Of a stretch of DNA of 64,000 bases, positions 5,281 through 63,756 are shown piece by piece (positions within the stretch are counted from its first letter, which is position 1; each line of letters opens with the position of its first letter). A model generated the notes under the pieces. It was not told where the DNA came from and made no database searches. It saw nothing but the letters and a program-made list of their open reading frames with translations. The translations under genes and the position numbers were made by a program. The stretch spans positions 200,918 through 264,917 of the forward strand of contig NZ_JAOEIY010000007.1 in NCBI RefSeq assembly GCF_025966695.1. Direction: 5' to 3'. Source of the stretch: Stutzerimonas sp. S1. Lineage in GTDB: Bacteria; Pseudomonadota; Gammaproteobacteria; Pseudomonadales; Pseudomonadaceae.

Positions 5281-6234
5281 ATGACCAATACCCCCTCCCA
5301 GACCTCCGGTGTGCAAATACTCGAGGTCGCGCCGGAACTTGCCGGCCAGCGCATCGATAACTTCCTGCGTACCCAGCTCAGAGGCGTTCCGAAGACGCTG
5401 ATCTATCGCATCCTGCGCAAAGGCGAGGTGCGGGTTAACAAGGGGCGGATCAAGCCTGAGTACAAGTTGCAGGCGGGAGATCTGGTGCGCGTGCCGCCGC
5501 TGCGCCTGGCTGAACGGGATGAGCCTGAGCCGCTTGCTCAGGGGCTGCTCGAGCGCCTTGAAGCGGCGATCGTCTATGAGGACAAGGCGCTGATCGTGTT
5601 GAATAAGCCGGCAGGTATCGCGGTGCATGGCGGCAGCGGACTTAGCTATGGCGTTATTGAAGCGTTACGGCAACTGCGGCCTGATGCTAAGGAGTTGGAG
5701 CTCGTCCATCGCCTGGATCGCGATACGTCGGGCCTGCTGATGGTTGCCAAGAAGCGCAGCATGTTGCGTCATTTGCACCAGGCGCTGCGTGGTGACGGTG
5801 TTGACAAGCGCTACATGGCGCTGGTACGTGGGCGGTGGGAGGCCTCTAAAAAGCAGGTCAATGCGCCGTTGCTGAAGAACACGCTGCGCTCCGGTGAGCG
5901 CATGGTTGAGGTGACTAGCGAGGGCAAGGAGGCGCTCACTCTGTTTCGCGTGCTGCGCCGTTTTGGTGATTTTGCCACGCTGGTTGAGGCTAAGCCGGTT
6001 ACCGGACGAACCCATCAGATTCGCGTGCATGCGCGGCACGCTGGACACAGCATCGCCGGAGACAGCAAGTACGGCGATGAGGAGTTCACTCGAGCCATTC
6101 GCGAGTTGGGCGGCAAGAGGTTGTTCCTGCACGCCTATGCATTGCGTGTTCCGCTTCCAGATGGCGGTGAGCTGTCGCTCGAGGCGCCGGTGGATGAGAT
6201 CTGGGCGCGCACGCTGGAGCGGCTGGGTGAATAG
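5281..6234 (+). CDS. rluC: 23S rRNA pseudouridine synthase RluC
   Basis: Isomerises uridines to pseudouridine in 23S rRNA (positions 955, 2504 and 2580 in E. coli). The 317-residue protein has an N-terminal S4 RNA-binding domain (about residues 18-75, [12 protein letters not shown]...[12 protein letters not shown]) and an RluA-family catalytic domain with the signature [11 protein letters not shown], whose aspartate is the catalytic residue, and [18 protein letters not shown] 5281 gives [12 protein letters not shown]; an upstream in-frame start at 5245 is not conserved in character. There is no Shine-Dalgarno sequence before 5281, which fits a leaderless transcript. The last eight bases overlap the next gene. 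Confidence 0.95.
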
Positions 6235-6913
6235 GTACGAGCTGCTGATTTTCGACTGGGACGGCACATTGGTCGATTCGATCGGGCGGATCGTTGAGTC
6301 GATGCAGGTTGCCGCTCGTGCCTGTGAGTTGCCGCAGCGTGATGAGGCTTCCCTTAAAGATATCATCGGCTTGGCGTTGCCCGAGGCGATTGCCACCCTT
6401 TATCCGCAATTGGCTGGTTCCTCCGTGGTTGAGGATTTTCGCCGCTACTACAGCGAGCACTATCTCGCGCTTGAAGCGCAGCCATCGCCACTATATCCCG
6501 GTGTGGCGGAGGTATTGCAGGCGTTTCGTGATCGTGGATATCTACTTGCGGTGGCCACGGGCAAGGGGCGGCTGGGGCTGAATCGCGTGTTGGCAGGGCG
6601 GGGTTGGGAGGCGTTCTTCGACGTCACGCGTTGTGCGGACGAGACTGCAAGTAAGCCCGATCCGCAGATGATCCACGAAATCCTCTGTCATTGTGGCAAG
6701 CGGCCGGAGCGGGCGCTGATGGTGGGCGATTCGGTATTCGATCTGCAGATGGCCCGGCATGCCGGCATCGATAGCGTGGCGGTTACGTATGGTGCGCAAC
6801 CGGTCGAGGTCCTGCGGGGGTGTAAGCCGCGGTTGATGATCGACCGTTTTGCGGAGCTTGGTGCCTGGCTGGGCGCTGTGGATAGCTTTGAGGTGAGTGC
6901 ATATGTCGGATGA
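6227..6913 (+). CDS. HAD-superfamily phosphatase (phosphoglycolate-phosphatase-like)
   Basis: A 228-residue HAD-IA hydrolase. Motif I is DWDGTLVDS (nucleophile Asp), motif II the threonine in AVATGKG, motif III the lysine in SKPDP, and motif [14 protein letters not shown]. The helical cap between motifs I and II places it with Gph/beta-phosphoglucomutase-like phosphatases; the substrate cannot be read from the sequence. Start is GTG 6227, inside the rluC stop region (overlap 8 bp), and its end overlaps sppA by 11 bp, so rluC, this gene and sppA are probably translationally coupled in one operon. Confidence 0.9.
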
Positions 6914-7886
6914 ATGGAAGGCGCCGGGAGTCGAGAGACCGGACGACCGTAGCAGTTGGAAGCTTCTAGAGAGAACCCTGCAGGCCGGCATTCAGGAGCA
7001 GCGGCGAGCCAGGCGCTGGGGCATTTTCTTCAAGCTGCTGACCTTCATCTACCTGTTCGGAGCCTTGGCGATGTTTTCGCCCACGTTGCAGTTCGGCAAG
7101 GATCGGGCTGCACGAGAGAGTCATACCGCGGTGATTAATGTGCGCGGAATGATTGCCGACGAAGAGTCAGCTAGCGCTGATAACGTGGTTGGCGCTCTGC
7201 GTGCAGCGTTCGAGGATGCCAATACTAAGGGCGTCATCTTGCGTATCAATAGCCCGGGTGGCAGTCCGGTGCAGTCGGGTTACATCTATGACGAGATTCG
7301 CCGGCTGCGTGGCGAATACCCGGCGATCAAGGTGTATGCGGTGATCACTGATCTCGGGGCGTCCGGTGCCTACTATATAGCCAGTGCGGCGGATGAGATC
7401 TACGCGGATAAGTCCAGTCTGGTGGGGTCCATTGGCGTGACGGCGGCGACGTTCGGTTTTGTCGAGACCATGGAGAAGCTGGGGGTGGAGCGGCGCGTAT
7501 ATACCTCGGGTGAGCACAAGGCCTTTCTCGACCCATTCCAGCCGGAAAAGCAGGAAGAGACCGAGTTCTGGCGCGAGGTGCTGGCAACCACGCATCGGCA
7601 GTTCATCGATAGCGTCAAGCTCGGGCGGGGCGATCGTTTGCAGGTCGCCGAACACCCTGAGTTGTTCTCCGGGTTGGTGTGGTCGGGTGAGCAGGCTTTG
7701 GAGTTGGGCTTGATCGATGGTCTGGGCAGTACCGCGCATGTTGCTCGCGAGGTGGTCGGCGAGCCGGAGCTTGTCGACTTTACCGTGAAGGAATCGACAA
7801 TCGATCGCTTTACCAAGAAGCTTGGTGCTGGGGTTGCCGAGCGTCTTGCGCTGCTCGTTGGACTGCAGGGACCGGTGCTGCGATAG
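6903..7886 (+). CDS. sppA: Signal peptide peptidase SppA, S49 family
   Basis: Inner-membrane serine protease that degrades cleaved signal peptides; 327 residues, the short single-domain form. One N-terminal transmembrane anchor lies at about residues 38-58 (WGIFFKLLTFIYLFGALAMF). The S49 core includes INSPGGSPVQSG, the nucleophile region DLGASGAYYIASAADEIYA and a candidate general-base lysine in the SGEHKAFLDPF stretch. ATG 6903 is preferred over GTG 6897 because the GAGGTGAG purine run is better spaced to it. Overlaps the upstream HAD gene by 11 bp and faces maf tail to tail. Confidence 0.93.
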   Translation: MSDEWKAPGVERPDDRSSWKLLERTLQAGIQEQRRARRWGIFFKLLTFIYLFGALAMFSPTLQFGKDRAARESHTAVINVRGMIADEESASADNVVGALRAAFEDANTKGVILRINSPGGSPVQSGYIYDEIRRLRGEYPAIKVYAVITDLGASGAYYIASAADEIYADKSSLVGSIGVTAATFGFVETMEKLGVERRVYTSGEHKAFLDPFQPEKQEETEFWREVLATTHRQFIDSVKLGRGDRLQVAEHPELFSGLVWSGEQALELGLIDGLGSTAHVAREVVGEPELVDFTVKESTIDRFTKKLGAGVAERLALLVGLQGPVLR

Positions 7887-49459: not shown

Positions 49460-50431
49460 ATGGCTGTTCAGGACCTGCTTTCGCAAGACGAGATCGATGC
49501 GCTCCTGCACGGGGTCGACGACGGTCTGGTGGATACCGAGAGCGACGCCGAACCCGGTTCGATCAAGAGCTACGACCTCACCAGCCAGGACCGCATCGTC
49601 CGTGGGCGCATGCCCACGCTGGAGATGATCAACGAGCGCTTCGCGCGTTACACCCGCATCAGCATGTTCAACCTGCTGCGCCGCTCGGCGGACGTCTCGG
49701 TGGGCGGTGTACAGGTGATGAAGTTCGGCGAGTACGTGCATTCGCTGTACGTGCCGACCAGTCTCAACCTGGTGAAGATGAAGCCGCTGCGTGGCACGGC
49801 GCTGTTCATACTCGACGCGAAGCTGGTGTTCAAACTAGTGGACAACTTCTTCGGCGGCGACGGCCGTCACGCCAAGATCGAAGGGCGCGAGTTCACGCCT
49901 ACCGAGCTGCGTGTGGTGCGCATGGTGCTGGATCAGGCGTTCACCGATCTCAAGGAAGCCTGGCACGCGGTGCTGGACGTCAACTTCGAGTACATCAATT
50001 CGGAAGTGAACCCGGCGCTGGCCAACATCGTCAGCCCCAGCGAGGTGGTGGTGGTGTCGACCTTCCACATCGAACTCGACAGCGGCGGCGGCGACCTGCA
50101 CGTGACCATGCCTTATTCGATGATCGAGCCGATCCGCGAGATGCTCGACGCCGGCTTCCAGTCCGACGTCAGCGACCAGGACGAGCGCTGGGTCAAGGCG
50201 CTGCGCGAGGACATTCTCGACGTCAACGTGCCGCTGGGCGCGACCGTGGTGCGGCGGCAGTTGAAGCTGCGCGACATTCTCAACATGCAGCCGGGCGATG
50301 TCATCCCGGTGGAAATGCCCGAAGACATGATCATGCGCGCCAATGGCATGCCGGCCTTCAAGGTCAAGCTGGGTGCCCACAAGGGCAACCTGGCGCTGCA
50401 GGTGCTAGAGCCGGTGGTTCGTCCGCGGTGA
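49460..50431 (+). CDS. fliM: Flagellar motor switch protein FliM
   Basis: 323 residues. The N-terminal LSQDEIDALLHG (7-18) is the CheY-P-binding peptide; the middle CheC-like domain starts near YDLTSQDRIVRGRMPTLEMI and the C-terminal SpoA domain (LKLRDILNMQPGDVIPVEMP) joins FliN. ATG 49460 is 13 bp after fliL. Confidence 0.98.
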   Translation: MAVQDLLSQDEIDALLHGVDDGLVDTESDAEPGSIKSYDLTSQDRIVRGRMPTLEMINERFARYTRISMFNLLRRSADVSVGGVQVMKFGEYVHSLYVPTSLNLVKMKPLRGTALFILDAKLVFKLVDNFFGGDGRHAKIEGREFTPTELRVVRMVLDQAFTDLKEAWHAVLDVNFEYINSEVNPALANIVSPSEVVVVSTFHIELDSGGGDLHVTMPYSMIEPIREMLDAGFQSDVSDQDERWVKALREDILDVNVPLGATVVRRQLKLRDILNMQPGDVIPVEMPEDMIMRANGMPAFKVKLGAHKGNLALQVLEPVVRPR

Positions 50432-50471
50432 CTCACTTTCTTACTCAATTCGAGCCGGTCGAGGATTAGCG

Positions 50472-50945
50472 ATGGCAGACGAACACGAAAACACTTCCCC
50501 AGAAGAGCAGGCGCTGGCCGACGAGTGGGCCGCGGCGTTGGCCGAGGCTGGCGATGCCAGCCAGGACGACATTGACGCGCTGCTCAATCAGGGGCCGGCC
50601 GCAGCCGAGCCTGCAGCACCGCGCGCGCCGCTGGAAGACTTTGCCAGTATGCCGAAGGCCGGCGGCGCACCGCTGGGGCTGGAGGGGCCGAACCTGGATG
50701 TGATCCTGGATATTCCAGTCTCCATTTCCATGGAGGTCGGCAGCACCGAGATCAGCATTCGCAACCTGCTGCAGCTCAACCAGGGCTCGGTGGTGGAGCT
50801 CGATCGGCTGGCAGGTGAGCCGCTGGACGTGCTGGTCAACGGTACGCTGATCGCGCATGGCGAGGTGGTGGTGGTCAACGAGAAGTTCGGCATTCGCCTG
50901 ACGGACGTGATCAGCCCCACCGAACGCATCAAGAAGCTGCGCTGA
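50472..50945 (+). CDS. fliN: Flagellar motor switch protein FliN
   Basis: 157 residues. The C-terminal SpoA domain (about 75-150, VSISMEVGSTEISIRNLLQL, GEPLDVLVNGTLIAHGEVV, VISPTERIKKLR) builds the C-ring base. The N-terminal extension contains SQDDIDALLNQG (30-41), which closely resembles the FliM CheY-binding peptide. Confidence 0.97.
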   Translation: MADEHENTSPEEQALADEWAAALAEAGDASQDDIDALLNQGPAAAEPAAPRAPLEDFASMPKAGGAPLGLEGPNLDVILDIPVSISMEVGSTEISIRNLLQLNQGSVVELDRLAGEPLDVLVNGTLIAHGEVVVVNEKFGIRLTDVISPTERIKKLR

Positions 50946-50946
50946 C

Positions 50947-51366
50947 ATGCGCGCGCTAGCCTTTCTCGGCCTGCTGCTCGCACTGCCGGCGCTGGCCGCC
51001 GAGCCGGCGACCAGCATGAGCAGCACCGACATGGGCGCTCAGTTGAGCAAGCTGCTGCTCGGCCTGCTGCTGGTGGTCGGGCTGATCTTCCTGCTCGCCT
51101 GGCTGCTGCGCCGCGTCCAGCAGCTGAACCCGCGCGGTACTCAGGTGATCAAGCTGGTTTCCAGTCAGGCGCTGGGCCCGCGCGAGCGGCTGGTGCTGGT
51201 GCAGGTAGGCAGCGAGCAGGTGCTGATCGGTCTATCCGCCGGCCGCATCACGCCGCTGCACGTGCTCAAGGAACCGGTGCATCTGCCCGATTCCGAGCCA
51301 GCCAATCCGGAGTTCGCTCAGCGCCTGATGGAGTTGCTGGGCAAGGATCACAAGGACAAGCCCTGA
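50947..51366 (+). CDS. fliO: Flagellar biosynthetic protein FliO
   Basis: 139 residues: signal-like N-terminus [20 protein letters not shown], a transmembrane helix (about 34-56) and a cytosolic part with [21 protein letters not shown] typical of FliO. It assists FliP assembly in the export gate. Starts one base after fliN; its stop overlaps fliP by one base. Confidence 0.93.
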
Positions 51367-52142
51367 TGTTGCGTATTCTGCTGGCGGTCCTGCTGGCTAC
51401 GATTGCCCCGCTGGCGCTCGGTCAGGAGGCTGGCGGATTGCTGGCGCGCGGTGACAACCCGTTGTCGATTCCGGCGATCACCCTGAGCACCGACGCTCAG
51501 GGCCAACAGGAGTATTCGGTCAGCCTGCAGATCCTGCTGATCATGACGGCGCTGAGTTTCATTCCGGCGTTCGTCATGCTGATGACCAGCTTCACGCGGA
51601 TCATCATCGTCTTTTCCATCCTGCGCCAGGCGCTGGGCCTGCAGCAGACGCCGTCGAACCAGATCCTCATCGGTCTGACGTTGTTCCTCACGCTGTTCAT
51701 CATGGCGCCGGTATTCGAGCGGATAAACCAGGAGGCGCTGCAGCCCTACCTGGCTGAGCAGCTGCCGGCGCAGGAGGCGATCGCCCGCGCCGAGGTGCCG
51801 CTCAAGGCGTTCATGCTGGCGCAGACCCGCGAAAGCGACCTCGACCTGTTCATGCGCCTGTCGCGGCGGACCGACATCGCCAGTCCGGAGGCGGCGCCGC
51901 TGACGATCCTGGTGCCGGCATTCGTCACCTCGGAGCTGAAGACGGCGTTCCAGATCGGCTTCATGATCTTCATTCCGTTCCTCATCATCGACATGGTGGT
52001 GGCCAGCGTGCTGATGGCGATGGGCATGATGATGCTGTCGCCGCTGATCATCTCGCTGCCATTCAAGATCATGCTGTTCGTGCTGGTCGACGGCTGGGGG
52101 CTGATCATCGGCACCCTGGCCGGCAGCTTCGGCACGCTCTAG
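51366..52142 (+). CDS. fliP: Flagellar export gate protein FliP
   Basis: 258 residues with a cleavable signal peptide ([19 protein letters not shown]) and four later helices. [38 protein letters not shown] and [18 protein letters not shown] are the FliP signatures. Confidence 0.98.
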
Positions 52143-52152
52143 GAGGCTCGTC

Positions 52153-52422
52153 ATGACGCCCGAAGTCGCGGTGGACCTGTTTCGCGAAGGCCTTTGGATG
52201 ACCGCGATGATCGTCGGTGTGCTGGTAATGCCCAGCCTGCTGGTCGGTCTGGTGGTGGCGATGTTCCAGGCCGCCACGCAGATTAACGAGCAGACGTTGA
52301 GCTTCCTGCCGCGCCTTTTGGTGATGCTGCTGACGCTGATCTGGGCTGGGCCTTGGCTGGTACGCGAGCTGATGGAATACACCCAGGGCCTGATCGCCAA
52401 CATTCCGCTGATCATCGGCTGA
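52153..52422 (+). CDS. fliQ: Flagellar export gate protein FliQ
   Basis: 89 residues, two transmembrane helices; MTPEVAVDLFREGLWMTAMI and the AATQINEQTLSFLPRL motif are family hallmarks. GGAGG precedes the ATG. Confidence 0.97.
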   Translation: MTPEVAVDLFREGLWMTAMIVGVLVMPSLLVGLVVAMFQAATQINEQTLSFLPRLLVMLLTLIWAGPWLVRELMEYTQGLIANIPLIIG

Positions 52423-52425
52423 GCC

Positions 52426-53202
52426 ATGCTGGAGCTGAGCAACGCGCAGATCGGCAGCTGGGTAGCGCAGTTCATGCTGCCGCTGTTTCGCATCGCGGCC
52501 TTGCTGATGAGCATGCCGATCATCGGTACCCAGCTGGTGCCGACGCGCGTGCGCTTGTACTTGGCGTTGGCCATTACCCTGGTGCTGGCACCAACCCTCG
52601 GCCCGATGCCGCTGGTCGAGGCGCTGAGCGTGCGCGCGCTGTTGCTGATTGCCGAGCAACTGTTGATCGGCGTGATGCTCGGCTTCGTGCTGCAGCTGTT
52701 CTTCCATGTCTTCATCGTTTCCGGGCAGCTGCTGGCGATGCAGATGGGCCTGGGCTTCGCCTCGATGGTCGATCCGGCCAACGGCGTGTCGGTGCCGGTG
52801 CTCGGACAGTTCTTCAACATGCTGGTGATCCTGCTGTTCCTGGCGATGAACGGCCATCTGGTGGTGCTGGAAATTCTCACCGAAAGCTTCGTGACCCTGC
52901 CGGTGGGTGGCGGGCTGTCGACCAACCATCTGTGGGAGGTGGCGGGGAAGCTTGGCTGGGTGCTCGGCGCCGGGCTGCTGCTGGTGCTGCCGGCGATCAC
53001 CGCGCTGCTGGTGGTCAACCTGGCGTTTGGCCTGATGACTCGCGCCGCACCGCAGCTGAACATTTTCTCAATCGGCTTTCCGCTGACTCTGGTACTGGGC
53101 CTGATCATCGTCTGGATCGGCATGGCCGATATCCTGGCGCAGTACCAGATCTTCGTCGGCGAGGCGCTGGCCATGCTGCGCGAGCTGGTGGGGCTGCGCT
53201 GA
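52426..53202 (+). CDS. fliR: Flagellar export gate protein FliR
   Basis: 258 residues, about six to seven hydrophobic helices. MLRELVGLR closes the protein; GLGFASMVDPANGVSVPVLG and VNLAFGLMTRAAPQLNIFSIG are conserved. Starts three bases after fliQ. Confidence 0.97.
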   Translation: MLELSNAQIGSWVAQFMLPLFRIAALLMSMPIIGTQLVPTRVRLYLALAITLVLAPTLGPMPLVEALSVRALLLIAEQLLIGVMLGFVLQLFFHVFIVSGQLLAMQMGLGFASMVDPANGVSVPVLGQFFNMLVILLFLAMNGHLVVLEILTESFVTLPVGGGLSTNHLWEVAGKLGWVLGAGLLLVLPAITALLVVNLAFGLMTRAAPQLNIFSIGFPLTLVLGLIIVWIGMADILAQYQIFVGEALAMLRELVGLR

Positions 53203-53235
53203 TGAACATGCTCATGCACAACGCGGAGGCCGTCG

Positions 53236-54372
53236 ATGGCTGAAAGCGAAAGCGGTGCCGACAAAAGCGAGGAACCCACAGAGAAACGCCGACGGGAATC
53301 TCGCGAGAAAGGCCAGATCGCGCGCTCGCGCGAGCTGAACACGGTGGCGGTCACCATCGGCGGGATCGGAGGGCTGCTGGCCTCCGGCGGCGGGTTGGCG
53401 CAGGCGCTGATGGGCATGATGCAGGGCAGCTTTGAGTTGAGCCGGGAGATGCTGCTCGATGAGGGCAGCATGGTGATGCTGCTGATGGCCAGCGGCATGA
53501 TCGCGCTGGAGGCCATCCTGCCGCTGCTGATCGCCCTGCTGATCGCCTCCATTGTCGGCCCGATTGCCTTGGGCGGCTGGCTGTTTTCGGCCAAGGCGAT
53601 GGCGCCCAACTTCGGCCGGATGAACCCCGGTGCCGGACTCAAGCGGATGTTTTCGACCAAGGCGCTGGTCGAGCTGCTCAAGGCGCTCGGCAAGTTTCTG
53701 GTGGTGCTGCTGGTGGCCTTGCTGGTGCTGTCTTCCTACCAGGACGACCTGCTGTCAATCGCCAAGCAGCCGCTGGATCTGGCGATCATGCACAGCGTCG
53801 AGCTGGTGGGCTGGTGTGCGCTGTGGATGGCCTGCGGGCTGATCCTGATCGCGGCGGTAGATGTGCCGTTCCAGCTCTGGGACAACAAGCAGAAGCTGAT
53901 GATGACCAAGCAGGAGGTCAGGGACGAGTACAAGGATTCCGAGGGCAAGCCCGAGGTCAAGTCGCGCATCCGCCAGTTGCAGCGCGAGATGGCCGAGCGG
54001 CGCATGATGCAGGCGGTGCCCGAAGCCGACGTGGTGATCACCAACCCGACGCACTTCGCCGTGGCGCTGAAATACGACGCCGCGCGGGGCGGGGCGCCGA
54101 TGCTGGTGGCCAAGGGCGGCGACTTCCTCGCGCTGAAGATCCGCGAGATCGCCCAGGAGCACAGCGTCACCGTCCTCGAATCACCGGCCTTGGCGCGGGC
54201 GGTGTACTACTCGACGGAGTTGGATCAGGAAATCCCGGCGGGGCTATATCTCGCTGTGGCTCAGGTGCTCGCCTATGTCTACCAGCTGCGGCAGTACCGC
54301 GCCGGCAAGGGCAGGCGGCCCGATCCGCTGCACGAACTGCCGATTCCGCCGGAATTACGCCGCGACGAATAA
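53236..54372 (+). CDS. flhB: Flagellar export switch protein FlhB
   Basis: 378 residues: DKSEEPTEKRRRESREKGQIARS N-terminus split over the charged head, four transmembrane helices, and the cytosolic autocleavage motif NPTH in VVITNPTHFAVALKY at about residue 272. It switches export from rod/hook to filament substrates. Last gene of the fliL operon. Confidence 0.98.
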   Translation: MAESESGADKSEEPTEKRRRESREKGQIARSRELNTVAVTIGGIGGLLASGGGLAQALMGMMQGSFELSREMLLDEGSMVMLLMASGMIALEAILPLLIALLIASIVGPIALGGWLFSAKAMAPNFGRMNPGAGLKRMFSTKALVELLKALGKFLVVLLVALLVLSSYQDDLLSIAKQPLDLAIMHSVELVGWCALWMACGLILIAAVDVPFQLWDNKQKLMMTKQEVRDEYKDSEGKPEVKSRIRQLQREMAERRMMQAVPEADVVITNPTHFAVALKYDAARGGAPMLVAKGGDFLALKIREIAQEHSVTVLESPALARAVYYSTELDQEIPAGLYLAVAQVLAYVYQLRQYRAGKGRRPDPLHELPIPPELRRDE

Positions 54373-54416
54373 TGGACGTAGGCTTGGCAGAGTATGGCGG
54401 CCGCCCTGCGTCGGCC

Positions 54417-54938
54417 TTACTCGATGACGCCGCAGGCGACCCGCGCGCCGCCACCGCCGAGTGGTTGCGGGTGATCGGAGTGATTGTCGCCGCCCTGATG
54501 CACCATCAGCGCCAGACCCTTGATATCACCGAGGCTCTTCAGTCGCGGGGCCAGTACCGGCTGGGTAGCCTTGCCATCGCCGTCCACGTACAGCGCCGGC
54601 AGGTCGCCCATGTGGCCGTCGCCCCAGGGTTCGCCATGCTTGCCGCTGTTCTTCGGGTCCCAATGGCCGCCGGCGGCGCCTGCGGCGGTGGGCTTGCCGT
54701 CGATCTCTGCTGCCTCGCAGCTGCCCTTGGCATGCACATGGAAGCCGTGGAGGCCCGGCTGTAGGCCCGCCAGCTCGGGGCGAAAGACCAGACCGTAGTC
54801 GCTGCTTTCGATCTTCACGCTGCCGACCGCCTCGCCGATGCCCTGGGCACTGACGGCTTTGAGCGGGACGCTGAGGGTTTCCGCCTGGACGCCGAGGACG
54901 GTGCAGCCGGCCAGCGCGGCGATGATCCACTGTTTCAT
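54417..54938 (-). CDS. sodC: Cu/Zn superoxide dismutase, periplasmic
   Basis: 173 residues with a signal peptide ([19 protein letters not shown]). Copper/zinc ligands are in [37 protein letters not shown] and [13 protein letters not shown]; the disulfide cysteines are in GSCEA and ACGVIE. It detoxifies periplasmic superoxide. It is the only minus-strand gene inside the flagellar cluster and lies between flhB and flhA. Confidence 0.95.
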
Positions 54939-55138
54939 CACGTGTCTCCTTGCAGATTGGACGGGGCGGCGGATTCCGCCGCACGAAGCTCTGACTGCGC
55001 GCGGCCCGGCGGGTTCGCAGACTTGGGCAGCGGACTCACCAGACCGCGACACGATGAGCTAAGTCCCGATGTCTGCGCCTCGCCAGCTCGCCGCGCCTGT
55101 CGATGTCGTCGGGCTGGGTGTAGGCCGGCGCGTCGAGT

Positions 55139-55154
55139 TGGACCCCTTCTTGCT
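55139..55154 (+). promoter_or_regulatory. Sigma-54 promoter of flhA operon
   Basis: TGGACC-CCTTC-TTGCT keeps the essential GG-N10-GC spacing with a two-base deviation in the -24 element. It lies 61 bp before the flhA start used here and reads into flhA-flhF-fleN. Confidence 0.75.
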
Positions 55155-55215
55155 ATAGCCCCGACAGAACGCATTCCTGCGTCAAAAAAACGATTCTGTC
55201 CGCTTGGGGGCTACG

Positions 55216-57336
55216 TTGGATCGCACGCAACTCATCAACATGCGCAACAGCCTGACGGGAGTCGGTCGGGGCAACCTCGGCGTGCCGCTGCTGTTGCTGG
55301 TCATGCTGGGCATGATGATGCTGCCGATCCCGGCATTCCTGCTCGACGTGCTGTTCACCTTCAATATCGCGCTGTCGATTGTGGTGCTGCTGGTCAGCGT
55401 CTATGCGCTGCGTCCGCTGGATTTCGCGGTATTTCCCACCATCCTGCTGGTCGCCACGCTGATGCGCCTGGCATTGAACGTCGCCTCGACCCGTGTGGTA
55501 CTGATCAACGGCCACGAGGGTGGCGCCGCGGCGGGGCACGTGATCGAAGCCTTCGGTAATGTGGTGATCGGCGGCAACTACGTGGTCGGTGTGGTGGTGT
55601 TCGCGATCCTGATGATCATCAACTTCGTGGTGGTGACCAAGGGCGCCGGGCGTATCTCCGAGGTGAGCGCGCGCTTCACCCTGGATGCCATGCCCGGCAA
55701 GCAGATGGCGATCGATGCCGACCTCAATGCCGGACTGATCGATCAGAGCGAGGCGAAAAAACGCCGCGTCGAGGTCGCTTCGGAGGCGGACTTCTATGGC
55801 TCGATGGACGGTGCCAGCAAGTTCGTCCGCGGCGATGCGATCGCCGGCCTGCTGATCCTGTTCATCAACCTGATTGGTGGCATCGGTATCGGTATGGCGC
55901 AGCACGGCCTGAGCTTCGCCGAGGCTGGTCGGGTCTACGCGCTACTGACGATCGGTGACGGTCTGGTGGCGCAGATTCCGTCGCTGTTGCTGTCGACCGC
56001 GGCGGCGATCATGGTGACCCGCGTCACCAGTTCAGAGGACATGGGCCAGCAGGTCCAGCGGCAGATGTTCGCCTCGCCGAAGGCGCTGGCCGTGTCGGCG
56101 GCGATCATGATTGCCATGGGCCTGGTGCCGGGCATGCCGCACATGTCCTTCCTCGGCCTGGGCGCCGCTGCCGCCGCCGGTGCTTACTGGATCTGGCATC
56201 GGCAGCGGCAGGTCAAGCAGCAGGCCGAGCAGGAAGTACAGAAGCAGCAGGAGCTGTTGCCAGCACAGCGTGCGGCGGAAACCAAGGAGCTTGGCTGGGA
56301 CGACGTCACGCCGGTGGACATGGTCGGTCTGGAGGTTGGCTACCGGCTGATCCCGCTGGTCGATCGCAACCAGGGTGGCCAGCTGCTGGCGCGGATCAAG
56401 GGTGTGCGCAAGAAGTTGTCGCAGGACCTGGGCTTCCTCATGCCGTCGGTGCATATCCGCGACAACCTCGATCTGTTGCCCAATGCCTATCGCCTGACGC
56501 TGATGGGCGTCAGCCTGGGCGAGGCGGAGGTCTACCCGGACCGCGAGCTGGCGATCAACCCGGGCCAGGTGTTCGGGCCGCTCAACGGCATCGCGGCCAA
56601 GGACCCGGCGTTCGGTCTGGAGGCGGTGTGGATCGAGGGCAGTCAGCGCGATCAGGCGCAGTCGCTCGGCTATACCGTGGTGGATGCCAGCACGGTGGTC
56701 GCCACGCACCTGAACCAGGTATTGCACAAGCACGCCCACGAACTGCTCGGTCATGAAGAGGTCCAGCAATTGCTGCAGCTGCTGGCCAAGAGCTCGCCGA
56801 AACTCGCCGAAGAGCTGGTGCCGGGCATGGTATCGCTGTCCACGCTGCTCAAGGTGCTGCAGGCGTTGCTGCAGGAGCAGGTGCCGGTACGCGATATCCG
56901 CACCATCGCCGAGGCCATCGCCAATGTGGCTGCCAAGAGTCAAGATCCCGCCGCTATGGTGGCGGCGGTGCGGGTCGCGCTGTGCCGCGCGATCGTGCAA
57001 AACGTTGTGGGACTAGAGCCCGAGCTGCCTGTGATCACCCTTGAGCCACGGTTGGAACAGATTTTGCTCAATAGCCTGCAGAAGGCCGGTCAGGGTGCCG
57101 AAGATGGCATCTTGCTGGAGCCGGGAATGGCCGAAAAGTTGCAGCGCTCATTGGTAGAGGCGGCGCAGCGTCAAGAAATGCTCGGCAAGCCGGCAATCCT
57201 CCTGGTAGCCGGACCGGTTCGCGCGATGTTGTCCCGGTTCGCGCGGTTGGCAGTGCCGAACATGCATGTGCTGGCCTATCAGGAAATACCGGACAACAAG
57301 CAGGTCACCATCGTTTCGACGGTGGGTCAGAATTAA
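55216..57336 (+). CDS. flhA: Flagellar export protein FlhA
   Basis: 706-residue export-gate component: about eight transmembrane helices in residues 20-325, then a cytosolic ring domain. Hallmarks are GRISEVSARFTLDAMPGKQM and AIDADLNAGLID. The start is a TTG at 55216 (LDRTQLIN) with GGGGG upstream; an earlier TTG at 55204 is less likely. There is no ATG start candidate before the conserved N-terminus. Confidence 0.96.
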   Translation: MDRTQLINMRNSLTGVGRGNLGVPLLLLVMLGMMMLPIPAFLLDVLFTFNIALSIVVLLVSVYALRPLDFAVFPTILLVATLMRLALNVASTRVVLINGHEGGAAAGHVIEAFGNVVIGGNYVVGVVVFAILMIINFVVVTKGAGRISEVSARFTLDAMPGKQMAIDADLNAGLIDQSEAKKRRVEVASEADFYGSMDGASKFVRGDAIAGLLILFINLIGGIGIGMAQHGLSFAEAGRVYALLTIGDGLVAQIPSLLLSTAAAIMVTRVTSSEDMGQQVQRQMFASPKALAVSAAIMIAMGLVPGMPHMSFLGLGAAAAAGAYWIWHRQRQVKQQAEQEVQKQQELLPAQRAAETKELGWDDVTPVDMVGLEVGYRLIPLVDRNQGGQLLARIKGVRKKLSQDLGFLMPSVHIRDNLDLLPNAYRLTLMGVSLGEAEVYPDRELAINPGQVFGPLNGIAAKDPAFGLEAVWIEGSQRDQAQSLGYTVVDASTVVATHLNQVLHKHAHELLGHEEVQQLLQLLAKSSPKLAEELVPGMVSLSTLLKVLQALLQEQVPVRDIRTIAEAIANVAAKSQDPAAMVAAVRVALCRAIVQNVVGLEPELPVITLEPRLEQILLNSLQKAGQGAEDGILLEPGMAEKLQRSLVEAAQRQEMLGKPAILLVAGPVRAMLSRFARLAVPNMHVLAYQEIPDNKQVTIVSTVGQN

Positions 57337-57351
57337 CCGAGGGTGCAGGCC

Positions 57352-58632
57352 ATGCAGGTCAAACGTTTCTTCGCCGCCGATATGCGCATTGCCATGAAGA
57401 TGGTGCGCGACGAGCTGGGCGCCGATGCCGTGATCATCGGCAATCGTCGGGTTGCTGGCGGCGTCGAGCTGACTGCCGTGCTCGATTACCCGATGCAGTC
57501 CGCACCCGAGGCCAAGAAACCCAACCCCGTGCTGGAAGCGGAGCTGCGCAAGACGCAGTCGCGCATTGCCTCGGCGCATGCTGAGCTGAGCACGCCGAGC
57601 CGCATGAAGGTGACTCAGGATCGTCAACTGCTTGACGAACAGCCGGTAGCTGCCGCGCCGCAGGCGGTGGCCGCCAGTGCCCCGCTCGATTCGCGAGCCT
57701 TCGAGAGCATGTACACCGAGCTGCAGGGCTTGCGCGAGCTGATCGAAGTGCAGCTCGGCTCGATCGCCTGGGGGCAGGAGCAGAGCCGTCGTCCGCAGCA
57801 GGCCGGCCTCTGGCGTCGCCTGCAACGCCTCGGACTGCCGGCGGAGCTGTCGCGCAGCCTGCTGGAGAAGGTCGCGGCCATCGCCGATCCGCGTCAGGCC
57901 TGGCGCATGGTGCTGGCGCATCTGGCGCAGGCGATCAAGGTCAGCAAGCAGGAGCCACTGGAAGAGGGTGGGGTGATCGCGCTGGTGGGACCGGCTGGGG
58001 TCGGCAAGACCACCACCTTGGCCAAGCTGGCGGCCCGTTACGTACTGAAGTACGGCGCGCAGAATATCGCGCTGGCAAGCATGGACAACTACCGCATCGG
58101 TGCCCAAGAGCAGCTGAAGACTCTCGGACGCATTCTCGATGTGCCGGTGGTACAGATCGATCCGTCGCAGCCGCTGGGCAAGACGCTGGCCCCGCTGGCG
58201 CGCAAGCGGATCATCCTGATCGACACCGCCGGGCTGCCGGCGAGCGATCCGACGCTGCGCATGCAGCTGGAGGCGCTGTCCGACCGTGGCGTCAAATCGA
58301 AAAACTATCTGGTGCTGGCCGCGACCAGTCAGAGCCAGGTGCTCAAGGCTGCCTGGCACAACTACCGGCGTTGTGGCCTGGCCGGTTGCATCCTGACTAA
58401 GCTTGACGAGGCCGGCTCGCTCGGCGATGTACTCGGGCTAACGATCAGCCAGCACTTGCCGATAGCCTATCTCGCCGACGGGCCGCGTATTCCCGATGAC
58501 CTGCACCTGCCGCGCAGCCATCAGCTGGTCAGTCGGGCGGTGAGTTTGCAGTCCGGCGAGGAGCCGAGCGAGGAAACCATGGCCGACATGTTCGCCGGTC
58601 TGTACAACGAATCATCGCGGCAGGCCGGATAA
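57352..58632 (+). CDS. flhF: Flagellar biosynthesis GTPase FlhF
   Basis: 426-residue SRP-type GTPase that sets the polar site of flagellum assembly. MQVKRFFAADMRIAMKMVRD N-terminus, N domain, then the G domain with GPAGVGKTTTLAKLA, DTAGLPASD and TKLDEAGSLGDVLGL. ATG 57352 follows GAGGGTG; GTG 57343 adds three residues. Confidence 0.96.
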   Translation: MQVKRFFAADMRIAMKMVRDELGADAVIIGNRRVAGGVELTAVLDYPMQSAPEAKKPNPVLEAELRKTQSRIASAHAELSTPSRMKVTQDRQLLDEQPVAAAPQAVAASAPLDSRAFESMYTELQGLRELIEVQLGSIAWGQEQSRRPQQAGLWRRLQRLGLPAELSRSLLEKVAAIADPRQAWRMVLAHLAQAIKVSKQEPLEEGGVIALVGPAGVGKTTTLAKLAARYVLKYGAQNIALASMDNYRIGAQEQLKTLGRILDVPVVQIDPSQPLGKTLAPLARKRIILIDTAGLPASDPTLRMQLEALSDRGVKSKNYLVLAATSQSQVLKAAWHNYRRCGLAGCILTKLDEAGSLGDVLGLTISQHLPIAYLADGPRIPDDLHLPRSHQLVSRAVSLQSGEEPSEETMADMFAGLYNESSRQAG

Positions 58633-58722
58633 GCTCTGCACGGCGTTACTCGAATAAACCAGATGCGTTCGGGCTGAATGCATCGCCGGCCTCCTGGCCC
58701 GAGCAATATATAGGCGTAGAAC

Positions 58723-59550
58723 ATGGGTATGCATCCCGTACAGGTGATTGCGGTGACCGGCGGCAAGGGTGGCGTCGGCAAGACCAACGTGTCGGTCAAT
58801 CTGGCGCTGGCCCTGGCCGAACTCGGGCGGCGCGTGGTGTTGCTGGATGCCGACCTCGGTCTGGCCAATGTCGACGTGCTGCTGGGGTTGACCACCAAAC
58901 GCACGCTTGCCGACGTGATCGCCGGCGAGTGCGACCTGCGCGATGTGTTGATTCCGGGGCCCGGCGGCATCCGCATTGTGCCGGCCGCCTCCGGCACGCA
59001 GAGCATGGTTCAGCTGTCCTCGCTGCAGCATGCCGGGCTGATCCAGGCCTTCAGCGACATCGGGGATGATCTCGATGTGCTGATCATCGACACGGCCGCC
59101 GGTATCGGCGATGCGGTGGTCAGCTTCGTGCGCGCCGCGCAGGAAGTGCTGCTGGTGGTGACCGACGAGCCGACTTCGATCACCGATGCCTATGCGCTGA
59201 TCAAGCTGCTCAACCGTGACTATGGCATCAACCGCTTTCGCGTCCTGGCCAACATGGCGCATGCCCCGCAGGAAGGGCGCAACCTGTTCGCCAAGCTGAC
59301 CAAGGTTACCGAGCGTTTTCTCGACGTCGCGTTGCAGTATGTCGGCGCGATCCCCTACGACGAAGCCGTGCGCAAGGCCGTGCAGAAGCAGCGTGCAGTC
59401 TATGAAGCCTATCCACGGTCCAAATGTTCACTGGCTTTCAAAGCCATCGCGCAGAAGGTCGACACCTGGCCGTTGCCGGCGACCCCGCGCGGGCACCTCG
59501 AGTTCTTCGTCGAGCGCCTGATCAGACCGGCTGCCGACACCCACGAATGA
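58723..59550 (+). CDS. fleN: Flagellar number regulator FleN (FlhG)
   Basis: 275-residue MinD/ParA-type ATPase that inhibits FleQ and limits flagellum number. Deviant Walker A GGKGGVGKTNVSVNLA, Walker B region VLIIDTAAGIGD, and a C-terminal amphipathic FFVERLI helix. Overlaps fliA by ATGA. Confidence 0.97.
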   Translation: MGMHPVQVIAVTGGKGGVGKTNVSVNLALALAELGRRVVLLDADLGLANVDVLLGLTTKRTLADVIAGECDLRDVLIPGPGGIRIVPAASGTQSMVQLSSLQHAGLIQAFSDIGDDLDVLIIDTAAGIGDAVVSFVRAAQEVLLVVTDEPTSITDAYALIKLLNRDYGINRFRVLANMAHAPQEGRNLFAKLTKVTERFLDVALQYVGAIPYDEAVRKAVQKQRAVYEAYPRSKCSLAFKAIAQKVDTWPLPATPRGHLEFFVERLIRPAADTHE

Positions 59551-60293
59551 CAGTTGCTGGATCTGCCATGTATTACAGCAAAGCTCAGGCGAAGGATGCT
59601 CAGCATCGTTTGATCGACCAGTATGCGCCGCTGGTCAAGCGTATTGCCTATCACCTGCTGGCGCGCTTGCCCGCCAGCGTTCAGGTCGATGATCTGATCC
59701 AGGCCGGCATGATCGGCCTGCTCGAGGCGGCGAAAAAATATGACGCTGGCAAGGGTGCCAGCTTCGAGACCTATGCCGGCATCCGCATCCGCGGCACCAT
59801 GCTCGACGAAGTGCGCAAGGGCGATTGGGCGCCACGTTCGGTGCATCGCAATTCGCGGATGGTCAGCGAGGCGATTCGCGCCATCGAGGCGAAAACCGGG
59901 CGTGACGCTAAAGATCACGAAGTCGCGGCCGAACTTAAGCTGAGCCTTGATGAGTATTACGGCATTCTCGGTGACACCCTGGGCAGCCGTCTGTTCAGCT
60001 TCGACGACCTGTTGCAGGACGGCGAGCACGGCGAGCTGCACGAGGATGCCGCCAGTACCCATTCGGAACCCTTTCGTGATCTGGAAGACGAGCGCTTCCA
60101 GCAGGCTCTGGCCGATGCCATCACCAACCTGCCCGAGCGCGAGAAGCTGGTGTTGTCGCTGTACTACGACGAAGAATTGAATTTGAAGGAAATCGGTCAG
60201 GTGCTCGGCGTCAGCGAGTCGCGGGTCAGTCAGCTGCACAGCCAGTGCGCCGCCCGTTTGCGCGCTCGCCTCGGCGAATGGCGTGCAAGCTGA
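59547..60293 (+). CDS. fliA: RNA polymerase sigma factor FliA (sigma-28)
   Basis: 248-residue flagellar sigma factor for late genes. Region 2 QYAPLVKRIAYHLLARLP and DDLIQAGMIGLLEA, region 4 LNLKEIGQVLGVSESRVSQL. ATG 59547 (MTVAGSAMYYSKAQ) overlaps the fleN stop by four bases; the frame's earlier ATGs lie inside fleN. Confidence 0.97.
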   Translation: MTVAGSAMYYSKAQAKDAQHRLIDQYAPLVKRIAYHLLARLPASVQVDDLIQAGMIGLLEAAKKYDAGKGASFETYAGIRIRGTMLDEVRKGDWAPRSVHRNSRMVSEAIRAIEAKTGRDAKDHEVAAELKLSLDEYYGILGDTLGSRLFSFDDLLQDGEHGELHEDAASTHSEPFRDLEDERFQQALADAITNLPEREKLVLSLYYDEELNLKEIGQVLGVSESRVSQLHSQCAARLRARLGEWRAS

Positions 60294-60356
60294 TCGACGT
60301 TTTATCGCTGCGAGACGTGCTCGGTTGCCGAGATTTTGGGACTTACGGAGGTCGAC

Positions 60357-60743
60357 TTGGACAAGAACATGAAAATCCTCATCGTCGATGACTTCTCGAC
60401 GATGAGACGCATCATCAAGAACCTCTTGCGCGACCTGGGGTTTACCAATACCGCCGAGGCTGACGACGGCACCACCGCCTTGCCGATGCTCAAGAGCGGT
60501 AGCTTCGACTTCCTGGTCACCGACTGGAACATGCCGGGCATGAGTGGCATCGATCTGCTGCGTCACGTGCGCGCCGACGAGCGTCTCAAGCATCTGCCGG
60601 TGCTGATGGTGACCGCCGAAGCCAAGCGCGACCAGATCATCGAAGCGGCCCAGGCCGGGGTCAACGGTTACGTGGTCAAGCCTTTCACCGCCCAGGTGCT
60701 CAAGGAAAAGATCGAAAAGATCTTCGAGCGCGTCAACGGCTGA
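60357..60743 (+). CDS. cheY: Chemotaxis response regulator CheY
   Basis: Single-domain receiver whose phosphorylated form binds the motor switch. From the ATG at 60369 it is 124 residues ([15 protein letters not shown]), the usual annotation. The ribosome-binding site, however, is GGAGG at 60347-60351, five bases before an in-frame TTG at 60357 and 17 bases before the ATG, so a 128-residue form starting LDKNMKIL is favoured here. Phospho-acceptor Asp is in [13 protein letters not shown]; Thr in VTAEAK and Lys in VVKPF complete the site. Confidence 0.95.
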
Positions 60744-60766
60744 AGCAGTAACGCCGCGAGGGCACT

Positions 60767-61561
60767 ATGACGCAAGCAGATCAAAGCCTGGCAGAGTTCG
60801 AAGCGACTCTGAAGGCTCATGCACCCCAGTTGATCGAGAGTCTGCAGGAAGGTCGCTTCGACGAAGCGGCGCAGATGTTCAACGAGCTCAACCAGACCCG
60901 CAATCAGGGGCTCTATCAAGAGGTTGGCAAGCTCACCCGCGAACTGCACAACGCCATCGTCAAGCTCGAGATGGACACTTGCGCCACCGGGGGTGATCCG
61001 TCACCGATCACCGATGCGACGGATCGGCTTTCCTACGTGGTGGAAATGACCGAGAAAGCGGCCAATCGCACCATGGACCTGGTGGAGGAATCGGCGCCGC
61101 TGGTCAATTACGTGAGTTACGAAGCCCAGAGTCTGACCGCCGACTGGCAACGTTTCATGCGCCGCGAAATGAATGCCGAGCAGTTCAGGGAGCTGGTCCG
61201 CCGGATCGATCAGTACCTGCAGCGCTCGATGAACGACAGCAGTCAGCTGTCGCAGAACCTCAGCGAAATCATGCTGGCTCAGGATTTCCAGGATCTGACC
61301 GGGCAGGTGATCAAGCGTGTTACCCGTCTGGTTACCGAGCTGGAAAGCAATCTGCTCAACCTGGTGCTGATGGCCGGCCAAGTGGACCGCGTGGCGGGCA
61401 TCCAGCATGACCGCGAAGAGATGCGCGCCGAGCAGGAAAAGAAAAAACAAGAGAAAGAACCTTCCAACGGTGAAGGTCCGCAGATGCATGCCGATATACG
61501 TGAGGACGTCGTGTCCGGACAGGACGACGTGGATGATCTGCTTTCGAGCCTAGGATTTTAG
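60767..61561 (+). CDS. cheZ: Protein phosphatase CheZ
   Basis: 264 residues, long helical bundle. The CheY-P phosphatase Asp/Gln pair is in MLAQDFQDLTGQVIKRV and the C-terminal CheY-binding peptide is QDDVDDLLSSLGF (252-264). Starts 23 bp after cheY. Confidence 0.97.
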   Translation: MTQADQSLAEFEATLKAHAPQLIESLQEGRFDEAAQMFNELNQTRNQGLYQEVGKLTRELHNAIVKLEMDTCATGGDPSPITDATDRLSYVVEMTEKAANRTMDLVEESAPLVNYVSYEAQSLTADWQRFMRREMNAEQFRELVRRIDQYLQRSMNDSSQLSQNLSEIMLAQDFQDLTGQVIKRVTRLVTELESNLLNLVLMAGQVDRVAGIQHDREEMRAEQEKKKQEKEPSNGEGPQMHADIREDVVSGQDDVDDLLSSLGF

Positions 61562-61572
61562 GGGATAGGAAT

Positions 61573-63756
61573 ATGAGCTTCGACGCCGATGAAGAAATCC
61601 TCCAGGATTTCCTGGTAGAGGCCGGCGAGATTCTCGAACTATTGTCTGAGCAGCTGGTGGAGCTGGAAAGCAGCCCCGACGACATGGCATTGCTCAATGC
61701 GATTTTTCGCGGGTTCCACACGGTCAAGGGCGGCGCAGGGTTTCTCCAGCTGCATGAGCTGGTCGAGTGCTGCCACATTGCCGAAAACGTCTTCGACATC
61801 CTGCGCAAGGGCGAACGCCGCGTAGATTCCGAACTGATGGATGTGGTGCTGCAGGCACTGGATGCCGTCAACGCGATGTTCAGCGAAGTGCGCGAGCGCG
61901 TCGAGCTCACTCCGGCAACTCCCGAACTCCTGGCAGCGCTGTCGCGCCTGGCCGAGCCGGCAGCAGCCGAGCAAGCCAGCGTAGCGGCGGCCGCGCCGGC
62001 CATCGTGCAAACCGTGGCTGACGACGAGTTCGAGCAGATGCTCCAGGCCATCGACGAACCGGCAGCCGCAGAGGCTGTGGTGCCTGGCGGCGATGAAATC
62101 ACCGACGACGAATTCGAGTCGCTGCTCGACCAGCTGCATGGCAAAGGCCAGTTCAGCGCAACGGCTTCCGAAGCCGCGGCTGCACCGGCCGAACCGGCCG
62201 CGGCGGCGGCCAGCGACGAGATCACCGACGCCGAATTCGAAGCGTTGCTGGATCAGCTGCATGGCAAGGGCCAGTTCAGCGAGCCCGCTGCCGCAGCCCC
62301 GGCTGCTGTCGAGCCGGCAGCGACTGCTGCGGTCGAGGCGAGTGCGCCGGCTGGCAGTGAAAATATCACCGACGACGAATTCGAGGCTCTGCTCGACCAG
62401 TTGCACGGCAAGGGCAAGTTCGAGCCCGAGAGCGTGGCGGTGGCCCCTGCAGCCGCTGCCCCTGCAACACCCCCACCGTCACCAGCCGCCAGTCCAGCCA
62501 AGGCTGCACCACGTCAGCCAGCCGCTGTCGCAAGCAAGGCCGAAGCGCCGGCGCGTGCCGCCACTGCGACCGAGAAGCCGGCCAGCGAGGCGGAAACCAC
62601 CGTGCGCGTGGACACCGCCCGCCTCGACGAGATCATGAACATGGTTGGCGAGCTGGTGCTGGTGCGTAACCGGCTGGTGCGTCTGGGCGCCAACAGTGGC
62701 GACGAGGCCATGTCCAAGGCCGTGTCCAATCTCGACGTGGTCACCGCCGATCTGCAGAGTGCGGTGATGAAGACCCGCATGCAGCCGATCAAGAAGGTTT
62801 TCGGGCGCTTCCCGCGGCTGGTGCGCGATCTGGCGCGCAGCCTGAAGAAAGAGATCAACCTGGAACTGGTAGGCGAAGAAACCGACCTCGACAAGAACCT
62901 CGTCGAGGCGCTGGCTGATCCGCTGGTGCACCTGGTGCGCAACGCGGTCGACCACGGTATCGAGTCGCCCGAGGACCGCGAGGCGGCGGGCAAATCGCGC
63001 ACCGGGCGCGTGGTGCTCTCTGCCGAGCAGGAAGGCGACCACATCCTGCTGATGATCACCGACGACGGCAAGGGCATGGATGCAAACGTCCTGCGCGCCA
63101 AGGCGGTCGAGAAAGGCATGCTGGACAAGGACGCCGCCGATCGTCTGAGCGACCTGGAATGCTACAACCTGATCTTCGCTCCGGGTTTCTCGACCAAGAC
63201 CGAGATTTCCGACGTGTCCGGCCGTGGTGTCGGCATGGACGTGGTCAAGACCAAGATTTCCCAGCTCAACGGTACGGTCAACGTGTTCTCCACCAAGGGC
63301 CAGGGCTCGAAGGTGGTAATCAAGGTGCCGCTGACGCTGGCGATCATGCCGACGCTGATGGTCATGCTCGGCAATCAGGCATTCGCCTTCCCGCTGGTCA
63401 ACGTCAACGAGATCTTCCATCTCGATCTGTCGCGCACCAACGTGGTCGACGGGCAGGAAGTCGTCATCGTTCGCGACAAGGCTCTGCCGCTGTTCTATCT
63501 CAAGCGCTGGCTGGTCCAGGGTGCCGAGCTGGAAGAGCCGCGCGAGGGGCACGTGGTGATCCTGAGCGTAGGCAACCAGAGCATCGGCTTCGTCGTCGAT
63601 CAGCTGGTGGGACAGGAAGAGGTGGTGATCAAGCCGCTCGGCAAGATGTTGCAGGGCACGCCCGGCATGTCCGGCGCGACCATCACCGGCGATGGCCGCA
63701 TCGCCCTGATTCTCGATGTTCCCAGCATGCTCAAGCGCTACGCGCGCCGGGTTTGA
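61573..63756 (+). CDS. cheA: Chemotaxis histidine kinase CheA
   Basis: 727 residues. The Hpt (P1) domain carries phospho-acceptor H49 (FHTVKGGAGFL). Residues about 128-345 form a low-complexity Ala/Pro/Glu linker with three near-identical 19-residue segments starting ITD (176-194, 217-235, 265-283) and one degenerate copy (148-160); I see no folded P2 domain. Then dimerisation (TARLDEIMNMVGELVLVRN), HATPase (HLVRNAVDHGIE, DDGKGMD, GRGVGMDVVK) and the CheW-like P5 domain. Confidence 0.97.
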   Translation: MSFDADEEILQDFLVEAGEILELLSEQLVELESSPDDMALLNAIFRGFHTVKGGAGFLQLHELVECCHIAENVFDILRKGERRVDSELMDVVLQALDAVNAMFSEVRERVELTPATPELLAALSRLAEPAAAEQASVAAAAPAIVQTVADDEFEQMLQAIDEPAAAEAVVPGGDEITDDEFESLLDQLHGKGQFSATASEAAAAPAEPAAAAASDEITDAEFEALLDQLHGKGQFSEPAAAAPAAVEPAATAAVEASAPAGSENITDDEFEALLDQLHGKGKFEPESVAVAPAAAAPATPPPSPAASPAKAAPRQPAAVASKAEAPARAATATEKPASEAETTVRVDTARLDEIMNMVGELVLVRNRLVRLGANSGDEAMSKAVSNLDVVTADLQSAVMKTRMQPIKKVFGRFPRLVRDLARSLKKEINLELVGEETDLDKNLVEALADPLVHLVRNAVDHGIESPEDREAAGKSRTGRVVLSAEQEGDHILLMITDDGKGMDANVLRAKAVEKGMLDKDAADRLSDLECYNLIFAPGFSTKTEISDVSGRGVGMDVVKTKISQLNGTVNVFSTKGQGSKVVIKVPLTLAIMPTLMVMLGNQAFAFPLVNVNEIFHLDLSRTNVVDGQEVVIVRDKALPLFYLKRWLVQGAELEEPREGHVVILSVGNQSIGFVVDQLVGQEEVVIKPLGKMLQGTPGMSGATITGDGRIALILDVPSMLKRYARRV
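62098..62421 (+). repeat. Three CheA linker repeats (57 bp each)
   Basis: In-frame repeats at 62098-62154, 62221-62277 and 62365-62421 encode ITDxEFExLLDQLHGKGxF. Base identity is high with mostly silent changes, and the units are separated by Ala/Pro-rich spacers of 66 and 87 bp. Confidence 0.95.

Follow-up and report, generated by a model that had tools for sequence, protein, structure and literature searches.

How does a CheA kinase without a recognisable P2 domain locate its response regulator CheY? The question is raised by a chemotaxis locus of Stutzerimonas sp. S1 that lies in a stretch of 64,000 nucleotides (contig NZ_JAOEIY010000007.1; hereafter the window) and whose cheA encodes, between the domains P1 and P3, a linker with four copies of a short peptide. 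These copies resemble the N-terminal peptide by which the motor protein FliM binds CheY; the C-terminal peptide of CheZ binds CheY as well, and both of these binding peptides are already known. We propose, at what we judge to be an even chance, that the linker repeats of F6-class CheAs, the flagellar class to which this kinase is assigned, stand in for P2 as docking motifs for response regulators. The peptides in FliM, FliN, CheZ and CheA are found at the residues given by the original prediction, a reading of this DNA from its letters alone, and the features on which the argument rests are as follows.

61573 to 63756, plus strand: cheA, 727 amino acids, with the Pfam domains Hpt (residues 8-100), dimerisation (342-401), HATPase (449-588) and CheW-like (595-722)
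61951 to 62595, plus strand: CheA residues 127-341, Ala/Pro-rich P1-P3 linker, predicted disordered except for four short helices
62014 to 62052, plus strand: weak motif copy, CheA residues 148-160, VADDEFEQMLQAI (VADDEFEQML from 148)
62098 to 62154, plus strand: motif copy, CheA residues 176-194, ITDDEFESLLDQLHGKGQF (core ITDDEFESLLDQLHG from 176)
62221 to 62277, plus strand: motif copy, CheA residues 217-235, ITDAEFEALLDQLHGKGQF (core ITDAEFEALLDQLHG from 217)
62365 to 62421, plus strand: motif copy, CheA residues 265-283, ITDDEFEALLDQLHGKGKF (core ITDDEFEALLDQLHG from 265)
49478 to 49513, plus strand: FliM residues 7-18, LSQDEIDALLHG, CheY-docking peptide of the motor, read from the sequence
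50559 to 50594, plus strand: FliN residues 30-41, SQDDIDALLNQG, FliM-like peptide, read from the sequence
61520 to 61558, plus strand: CheZ residues 252-264, QDDVDDLLSSLGF, C-terminal CheY-binding peptide, read from the sequence

The approximate consensus of the CheA linker motif is ITDDEFEALLDQLHG, and KG[QK]F comes after each of the copies at 176, 217 and 265. The acidic pair with which the original prediction had defined the shared peptide is present in the other CheA copies and missing from the middle one (217), which has Ala-Glu instead of their Asp-Glu. The FliM peptide LSQDEIDALLHG recurs in the same or nearly the same form in the other FliM N-termini printed for comparison, and the CheA copies follow the FliM-type pattern L-S-Q-x-E-I-D-A-L-L by similarity, not identity, with Phe at the Ile position.

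To what extent could such a short motif arise by chance? We searched the genome as DNA for the bare pattern [DE][DE]hyd[DE]x[LF][LF] (hyd, hydrophobic residue), with the reversed pattern as a control, and found no genome-wide enrichment (46 places versus 39 for the reversed pattern); the bare pattern alone was therefore rejected as evidence, and clustering and conservation bear the case. Five of the 46 places are FliM, FliN, CheZ and two CheA copies, all on one strand inside a span of 12.9 kb for which the expectation is about 0.14. When the 19,371 10-mers from the automatic gene set of the window (which is without FliN) were ranked against the FliM 10-mer, CheA copies came 2nd and 5th, and the copies at 148 and 217 tied for 8th to 12th; with the CheZ 10-mer as the query, no CheA copy was among the top 14. 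When the best FliM-like 10-mer was taken from each of 75 related CheA linkers, the median score was 28 versus a mean of 12.5 for shuffled linkers, and 66 of the 75 scored above all 100 shuffles, although these linkers are related to one another and do not amount to 75 independent tests. None of 200 scrambled FliM peptides matched the observed median, whereas 18 of 200 scrambled CheZ peptides matched theirs, which indicates that the likeness of the CheA copies is to FliM rather than to CheZ. The ranking and the scrambled controls together led us to reject CheZ as a template for the CheA copies; of the earlier claim of one peptide shared by all, the CheZ likeness lies within the range of the scrambled controls.

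The second line of evidence is conservation. A CheA match at E 1e-80 was obtained in 120 of 232 genomes of the same class, a number that includes other CheA classes matching only in the kinase part. The 80 loci compared (L116-L195) are the head of that match list, with truncated and lower-scoring places excluded and seven further regions read besides, and 75 of them gave usable linkers; two of the remainder are truncated (L170, L182), two are masked (L176, L191), and L133 missed the P3 anchor, with two copies visible. With a permissive expression, at least one motif copy was found in 74 of the 75 usable linkers, the copies of L195 being divergent and scored as 0. Copy number per linker was 0 in 1, 1 in 3, 2 in 28, 3 in 34, 4 in 8 and 5 in 1. 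In a set of 80 named loci, almost all of which their titles place in Pseudomonadaceae, 78 CheAs have four copies and 2 have three, the first copy being mostly xEFEQLL. Residue percentages from these matches are partly built in, because the permissive expression itself demands Phe or Tyr and hydrophobic residues, but an alignment of 39 sequences made without it is free of that: in it, the window CheA residues F222, L226 and D227 do not vary, and conservation is 90% or higher at E221, L225, E269, F270, L274 and D275. The 40 most frequent linker 5-mers likewise come from the motif, from Ala/Pro runs or from the beginning of P3, so that essentially nothing but the motif is conserved in the linker.

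Is there a folded P2 beside these copies? Pfam gave no P2 match in the window CheA at E values up to 1 (PF09078, and PF07194, which we take to be a CheA P2/CheY-binding model) and none in ten other motif-bearing CheAs scanned (0 of 11 with the window). In an AlphaFold2 model of CheA residues 1-400, a confident P1 is followed by a low-confidence linker without any strand, and no folded alpha-beta domain appears between P1 and P3. The predicted linker helices, at 151-160, 178-188, 219-230 and 267-278, coincide with the four motif copies. A structure prediction of the joined cheY-cheA read-through, used for confidence and secondary structure only, likewise has helices at the three better copies (best-block predicted local distance difference test 79-84). 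A Foldseek search with the CheA model returned P1 structures, and because its top match, 2LP4, aligns at a root-mean-square deviation of 20.4 Å, weight is given only to the P1 part of that match. HMMER detects P2 in fewer than 20% of CheAs, a share that profile methods raise (PMC10782961). Pfam being weak at detecting P2, the model counts for more than the missing Pfam match. The loss of P2 is itself already known: a survey did not find the domain in over half of the CheA homologues and judged it dispensable (PMC10782961).

Helices of this kind could also serve general purposes. The repeats may be SHOCT-like oligomerisation or general protein-protein helices whose FliM likeness is a convergence on a capped acidic amphipathic helix, a reading that we consider highly improbable. 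Pfam SHOCT (PF09851) does match the repeats, at 32.6 bits in the CheA of L155 against a cut-off of 27, but the window CheA stays below that cut-off at 22.0 bits, L155 is the only one of the 11 scanned motif-bearing CheAs to pass it, and the different motifs of other P2-less CheAs are left unexplained. In the L155 CheA (5474-7612), the three copies are set within a longer repeat (e.g. LPEGVDPDGEITDDEFEALLNQRD) that also resembles an EF-hand loop.

Comparison with other CheA groups separates linear motif from P2. Five E. coli-like CheAs (so classed from sequence) all carry PF09078, and none has EFxxLL; P2 and the linear motif are mutually exclusive among the CheAs examined. The same division is seen within single loci of G147 and G401 (L355, L358), which encode two CheAs, one with FliM-like copies and the other with a P2-like stretch (by eye) and no copies. 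Linkers without P2 may carry other motifs instead: FGFF-type repeats ([FY]G[FLI][FY]) occur in three or four copies in nine CheAs (L301, L305-L310, L312, L314), of which four belong to the same family as the window and five to different families of that class, with a Pfam P2 in 0 of 9. Similarly, when 17 CheAs were taken from outside this class but within the phylum, probably from alphaproteobacteria, 13 of them (L288-L291, L315-L323) had a single GEVSLDELERAF-type motif in the P1-P3 linker, with a Pfam P2 in 0 of the 5 scanned. A further CheA group of the same class as the window (L294-L296) has no clear P2 and no motif, and shows by eye a loose Trp-containing stretch (e.g. DDINWDALHAVLTG).

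On the CheY side, we compared the 75 CheYs encoded beside motif-bearing CheAs, window included, in E. coli numbering. Their alpha4-beta5-alpha5 region is highly conserved, with R92 in 62 of 75, Q94 in 71, V103 in 74 and K117 in 63. The residues at 92, 94, 103 and 117 of 2che, which we take to be Salmonella CheY and whose organism presumably has a P2-bearing CheA, are K, N, A and E. The same changes are described in CheYs that moved from an F6 to an F7 CheA, with 92, 94 and 103 mapped to the P2 face and 117 in a helix meeting FliM (PMC7184735). This residue pattern, a correlation in sequence, fits a CheY whose face was in contact with another element of CheA prior to the move.

From the copies, their conservation and FliM-likeness, the absence of a P2 match, the predicted helices and the separation from P2-bearing CheAs, all of which are observed, we infer that the copies bind a regulator, which one it is and how phosphotransfer is affected. 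The kinase would present, instead of a folded P2, a disordered P1-P3 linker with several FliM-like helical peptides. Each copy would capture a response regulator (CheY first, perhaps CheB) via its alpha4-beta5-alpha5 face and keep it at raised local concentration near phosphorylated P1, the role that P2 has in E. coli, and several weak copies on a flexible tether would give avidity together with fast exchange. The replacement of P2 that had been proposed for this CheA is supported in part, by the absence of a P2 match, the predicted disorder (outside the repeat helices), the conservation and the FliM-likeness beyond the controls; Phe in place of Ile, the preference of FliM- and CheZ-type peptides for phosphorylated CheY and a published rival role for the same part of CheA speak against simply equating the copies with the FliM peptide.

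Several points weigh against docking in place of P2. At the position of the Ile of FliM, the CheA copies have Phe. FliM- and CheZ-type peptides favour phosphorylated CheY, whereas the docking site of a kinase ought to let it go; a FliM-like site in CheA would therefore be prone to retain its product, unless the variant with Phe is tuned in another way. Five P2-less CheAs (L286, L287, L292, L293, L324) show none of the linker motifs. The second CheA of the genome (L005, 5023-6963) also has no Pfam P2 match, though its linker looks folded by eye; it carries no FliM-like copies, and its phmmer matches to P2 are unconvincing. Pfam overlooks many P2s, and E. coli CheA functions without P2, if more slowly (PMC10782961), so that a replacement is not strictly needed. 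A Pfam-based CheY-binding domain has been drawn in the CheA of P. putida (PMC11978298); in four Pseudomonas CheAs, P. putida being outside these four, Pfam did not reproduce such a domain. Finally, work on Vibrio attributes the binding of ParP to the same part of CheA (PMC7534058, PMC5706961).

This last assignment offers a complete alternative, in which the repeats represent the CheA-LID: by binding ParP at its CheW-like AIF domain they would fasten CheA and its array to ParC, the anchor at the pole, and would be unrelated to CheY. We regard it as rather unlikely. In the published descriptions, LID lies between P2 and P3, binds ParP and is confined to species with ParC and ParP (PMC7534058, PMC5706961). 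The repeats of the window CheA occupy the corresponding position between P1/P2 and P3 and, being nearly the sole conserved content there, may be the LID. The genes agree as well, since parC and parP lie downstream of the window cheA (L004) and a nearby match was found for ParC in 61 of the 80 related loci and for ParP in 48 (both in 47, ParC only in 14, ParP only in 1 and neither in 18, some of these with a contig end or the genes elsewhere). However, five genomes that were searched as a whole keep readable copies without a recognisable ParC or ParP (3 copies in G172, 2 in G008, 4 in G001, 1 in G020 and 1 in G152); G001 is only 91% complete, and G154 (masked linker) and G023 (divergent copies) were left out of the count. 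In these five, the best ParC-like matches reach 110-123 bits, compared to about 180 or more for accepted ParC, and no ParP was found at E 1e-4. Because ParP is poorly conserved, as the 14 loci with ParC and no ParP match illustrate, its absence by similarity is the weak part of this argument and the absence of ParC the stronger one. The motif is hence no strict marker of the ParC/ParP system, and strict linkage to it was rejected, but the copies may still bind ParP. The LID assignment also does not predict the likeness to FliM. Many ParPs of L116-L186 share, by eye, an N-terminal motif of approximately QxALxxYLDxLLxE in an otherwise variable region.

Regulator docking and ParP binding are mutually compatible. 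The two could be divided among the copies, some serving CheY or CheB and others ParP, with tethering and phosphotransfer on one disordered linker. The range of copy number (1-5) and the different tails of copies within one CheA (LHGKGKF, LQG, LYG) would suit such a division, which we nevertheless hold to be improbable: by inspection, no feature of the copies was seen to separate genomes with ParC/ParP from those lacking them.

Returning to docking in place of P2, the motifs of the other groups allow a wider, more tentative suggestion, to which we give somewhat less than an even chance. P2-less CheAs would use short linear motifs of the linker as docking codes, one per CheA class: EFEALL repeats in F6, the FGFF type in another CheA group, that of Pseudomonas and related genomes, and the GEVSLDELERAF type in other classes of the phylum. 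If true, different codes within one cell would insulate parallel chemosensory pathways. Related peptides would then bring kinase and motor to the same face of CheY, the number of copies could be tuned, and LID would be recast. Domain schemes in which Pseudomonas CheA is given a P2 (e.g. PMC11978298) would have to be re-examined. No report of FliM-like peptides in CheA was found in the open-access literature, that on ParP and LID included, in so far as its text was available.

The remaining genes of the pathway lie on the same strand as cheA, the plus strand.

49460 to 50431, plus strand: fliM, flagellar switch protein, 323 amino acids, ATG at 49460 (TIGR01397, 360.7 bits, cut-off 219.6)
50472 to 50945, plus strand: fliN, 157 amino acids (TIGR02480, 111.5 bits, cut-off 84.05)
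60336 to 60743, plus strand: cheY, start provisional, with the ATG of MKILIVDD at 60369 (NF007901, 189.4 bits, cut-off 189)
60767 to 61561, plus strand: cheZ, 264 amino acids (PF04344, 253.1 bits)

On the 3' side of cheA follow cheB, two motor genes, parC, parP and cheW (L004, partly past the window end; named by order and similarity). The window and L004 thus have the order cheY-cheZ-cheA-cheB-(motor genes)-parC-parP-cheW, which we take as the marker of the F6 class of flagellar CheA. The class name is that of PMC7184735 and PMC10782961. The nearest named CheA is that of Stutzerimonas stutzeri TS44 (88% identity), and the top sequence match of the window CheY in the PDB is 3to5_A. In another che locus (L142, 4877-7666), cheA stands directly after cheY with no cheZ in between.

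The peptide in FliN, put forward earlier as an additional motor site, was followed through 26 FliN loci of Pseudomonadaceae, window included, 25 of which have a readable N-terminus. At the peptide site, 23 of these 25 show Q-x-x-[IV]-D-[AS]-[LM]-[LM], the final pair being Leu-Leu in only four, and L350 and L351 are without it; the motif was found in 0 of 14 printed FliN N-termini from other families. On this distribution, a second, family-specific CheY site at the motor, restricted to Pseudomonadaceae, is plausible.

How do the repeats compare with known systems? With the C-terminal peptide of CheZ they share acidic residues, a hydrophobic residue and LLxxL, a likeness no better than that of scrambled controls. 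With the CheA-LID of Vibrio they share the part of CheA and the usual presence of ParC and ParP genes nearby; unlike it, they are also present without a recognisable ParC or ParP. The P2 domain (PF09078) has the same place between P1 and P3 and, by our proposal, the same job, whereas the repeats are short repeated helices, unmatched by Pfam and modelled without any strand. The CheA copies differ from the FliM peptide in being internal and repeated in a kinase linker, in having Phe for Ile and an extra LHG tail, and in that their CheY binding is putative; in common with it, they have [LI]-[ST]-x-D-E-hyd-[DE]-x-L-L and a predicted helix, and they belong to the same pathway of the same cell.

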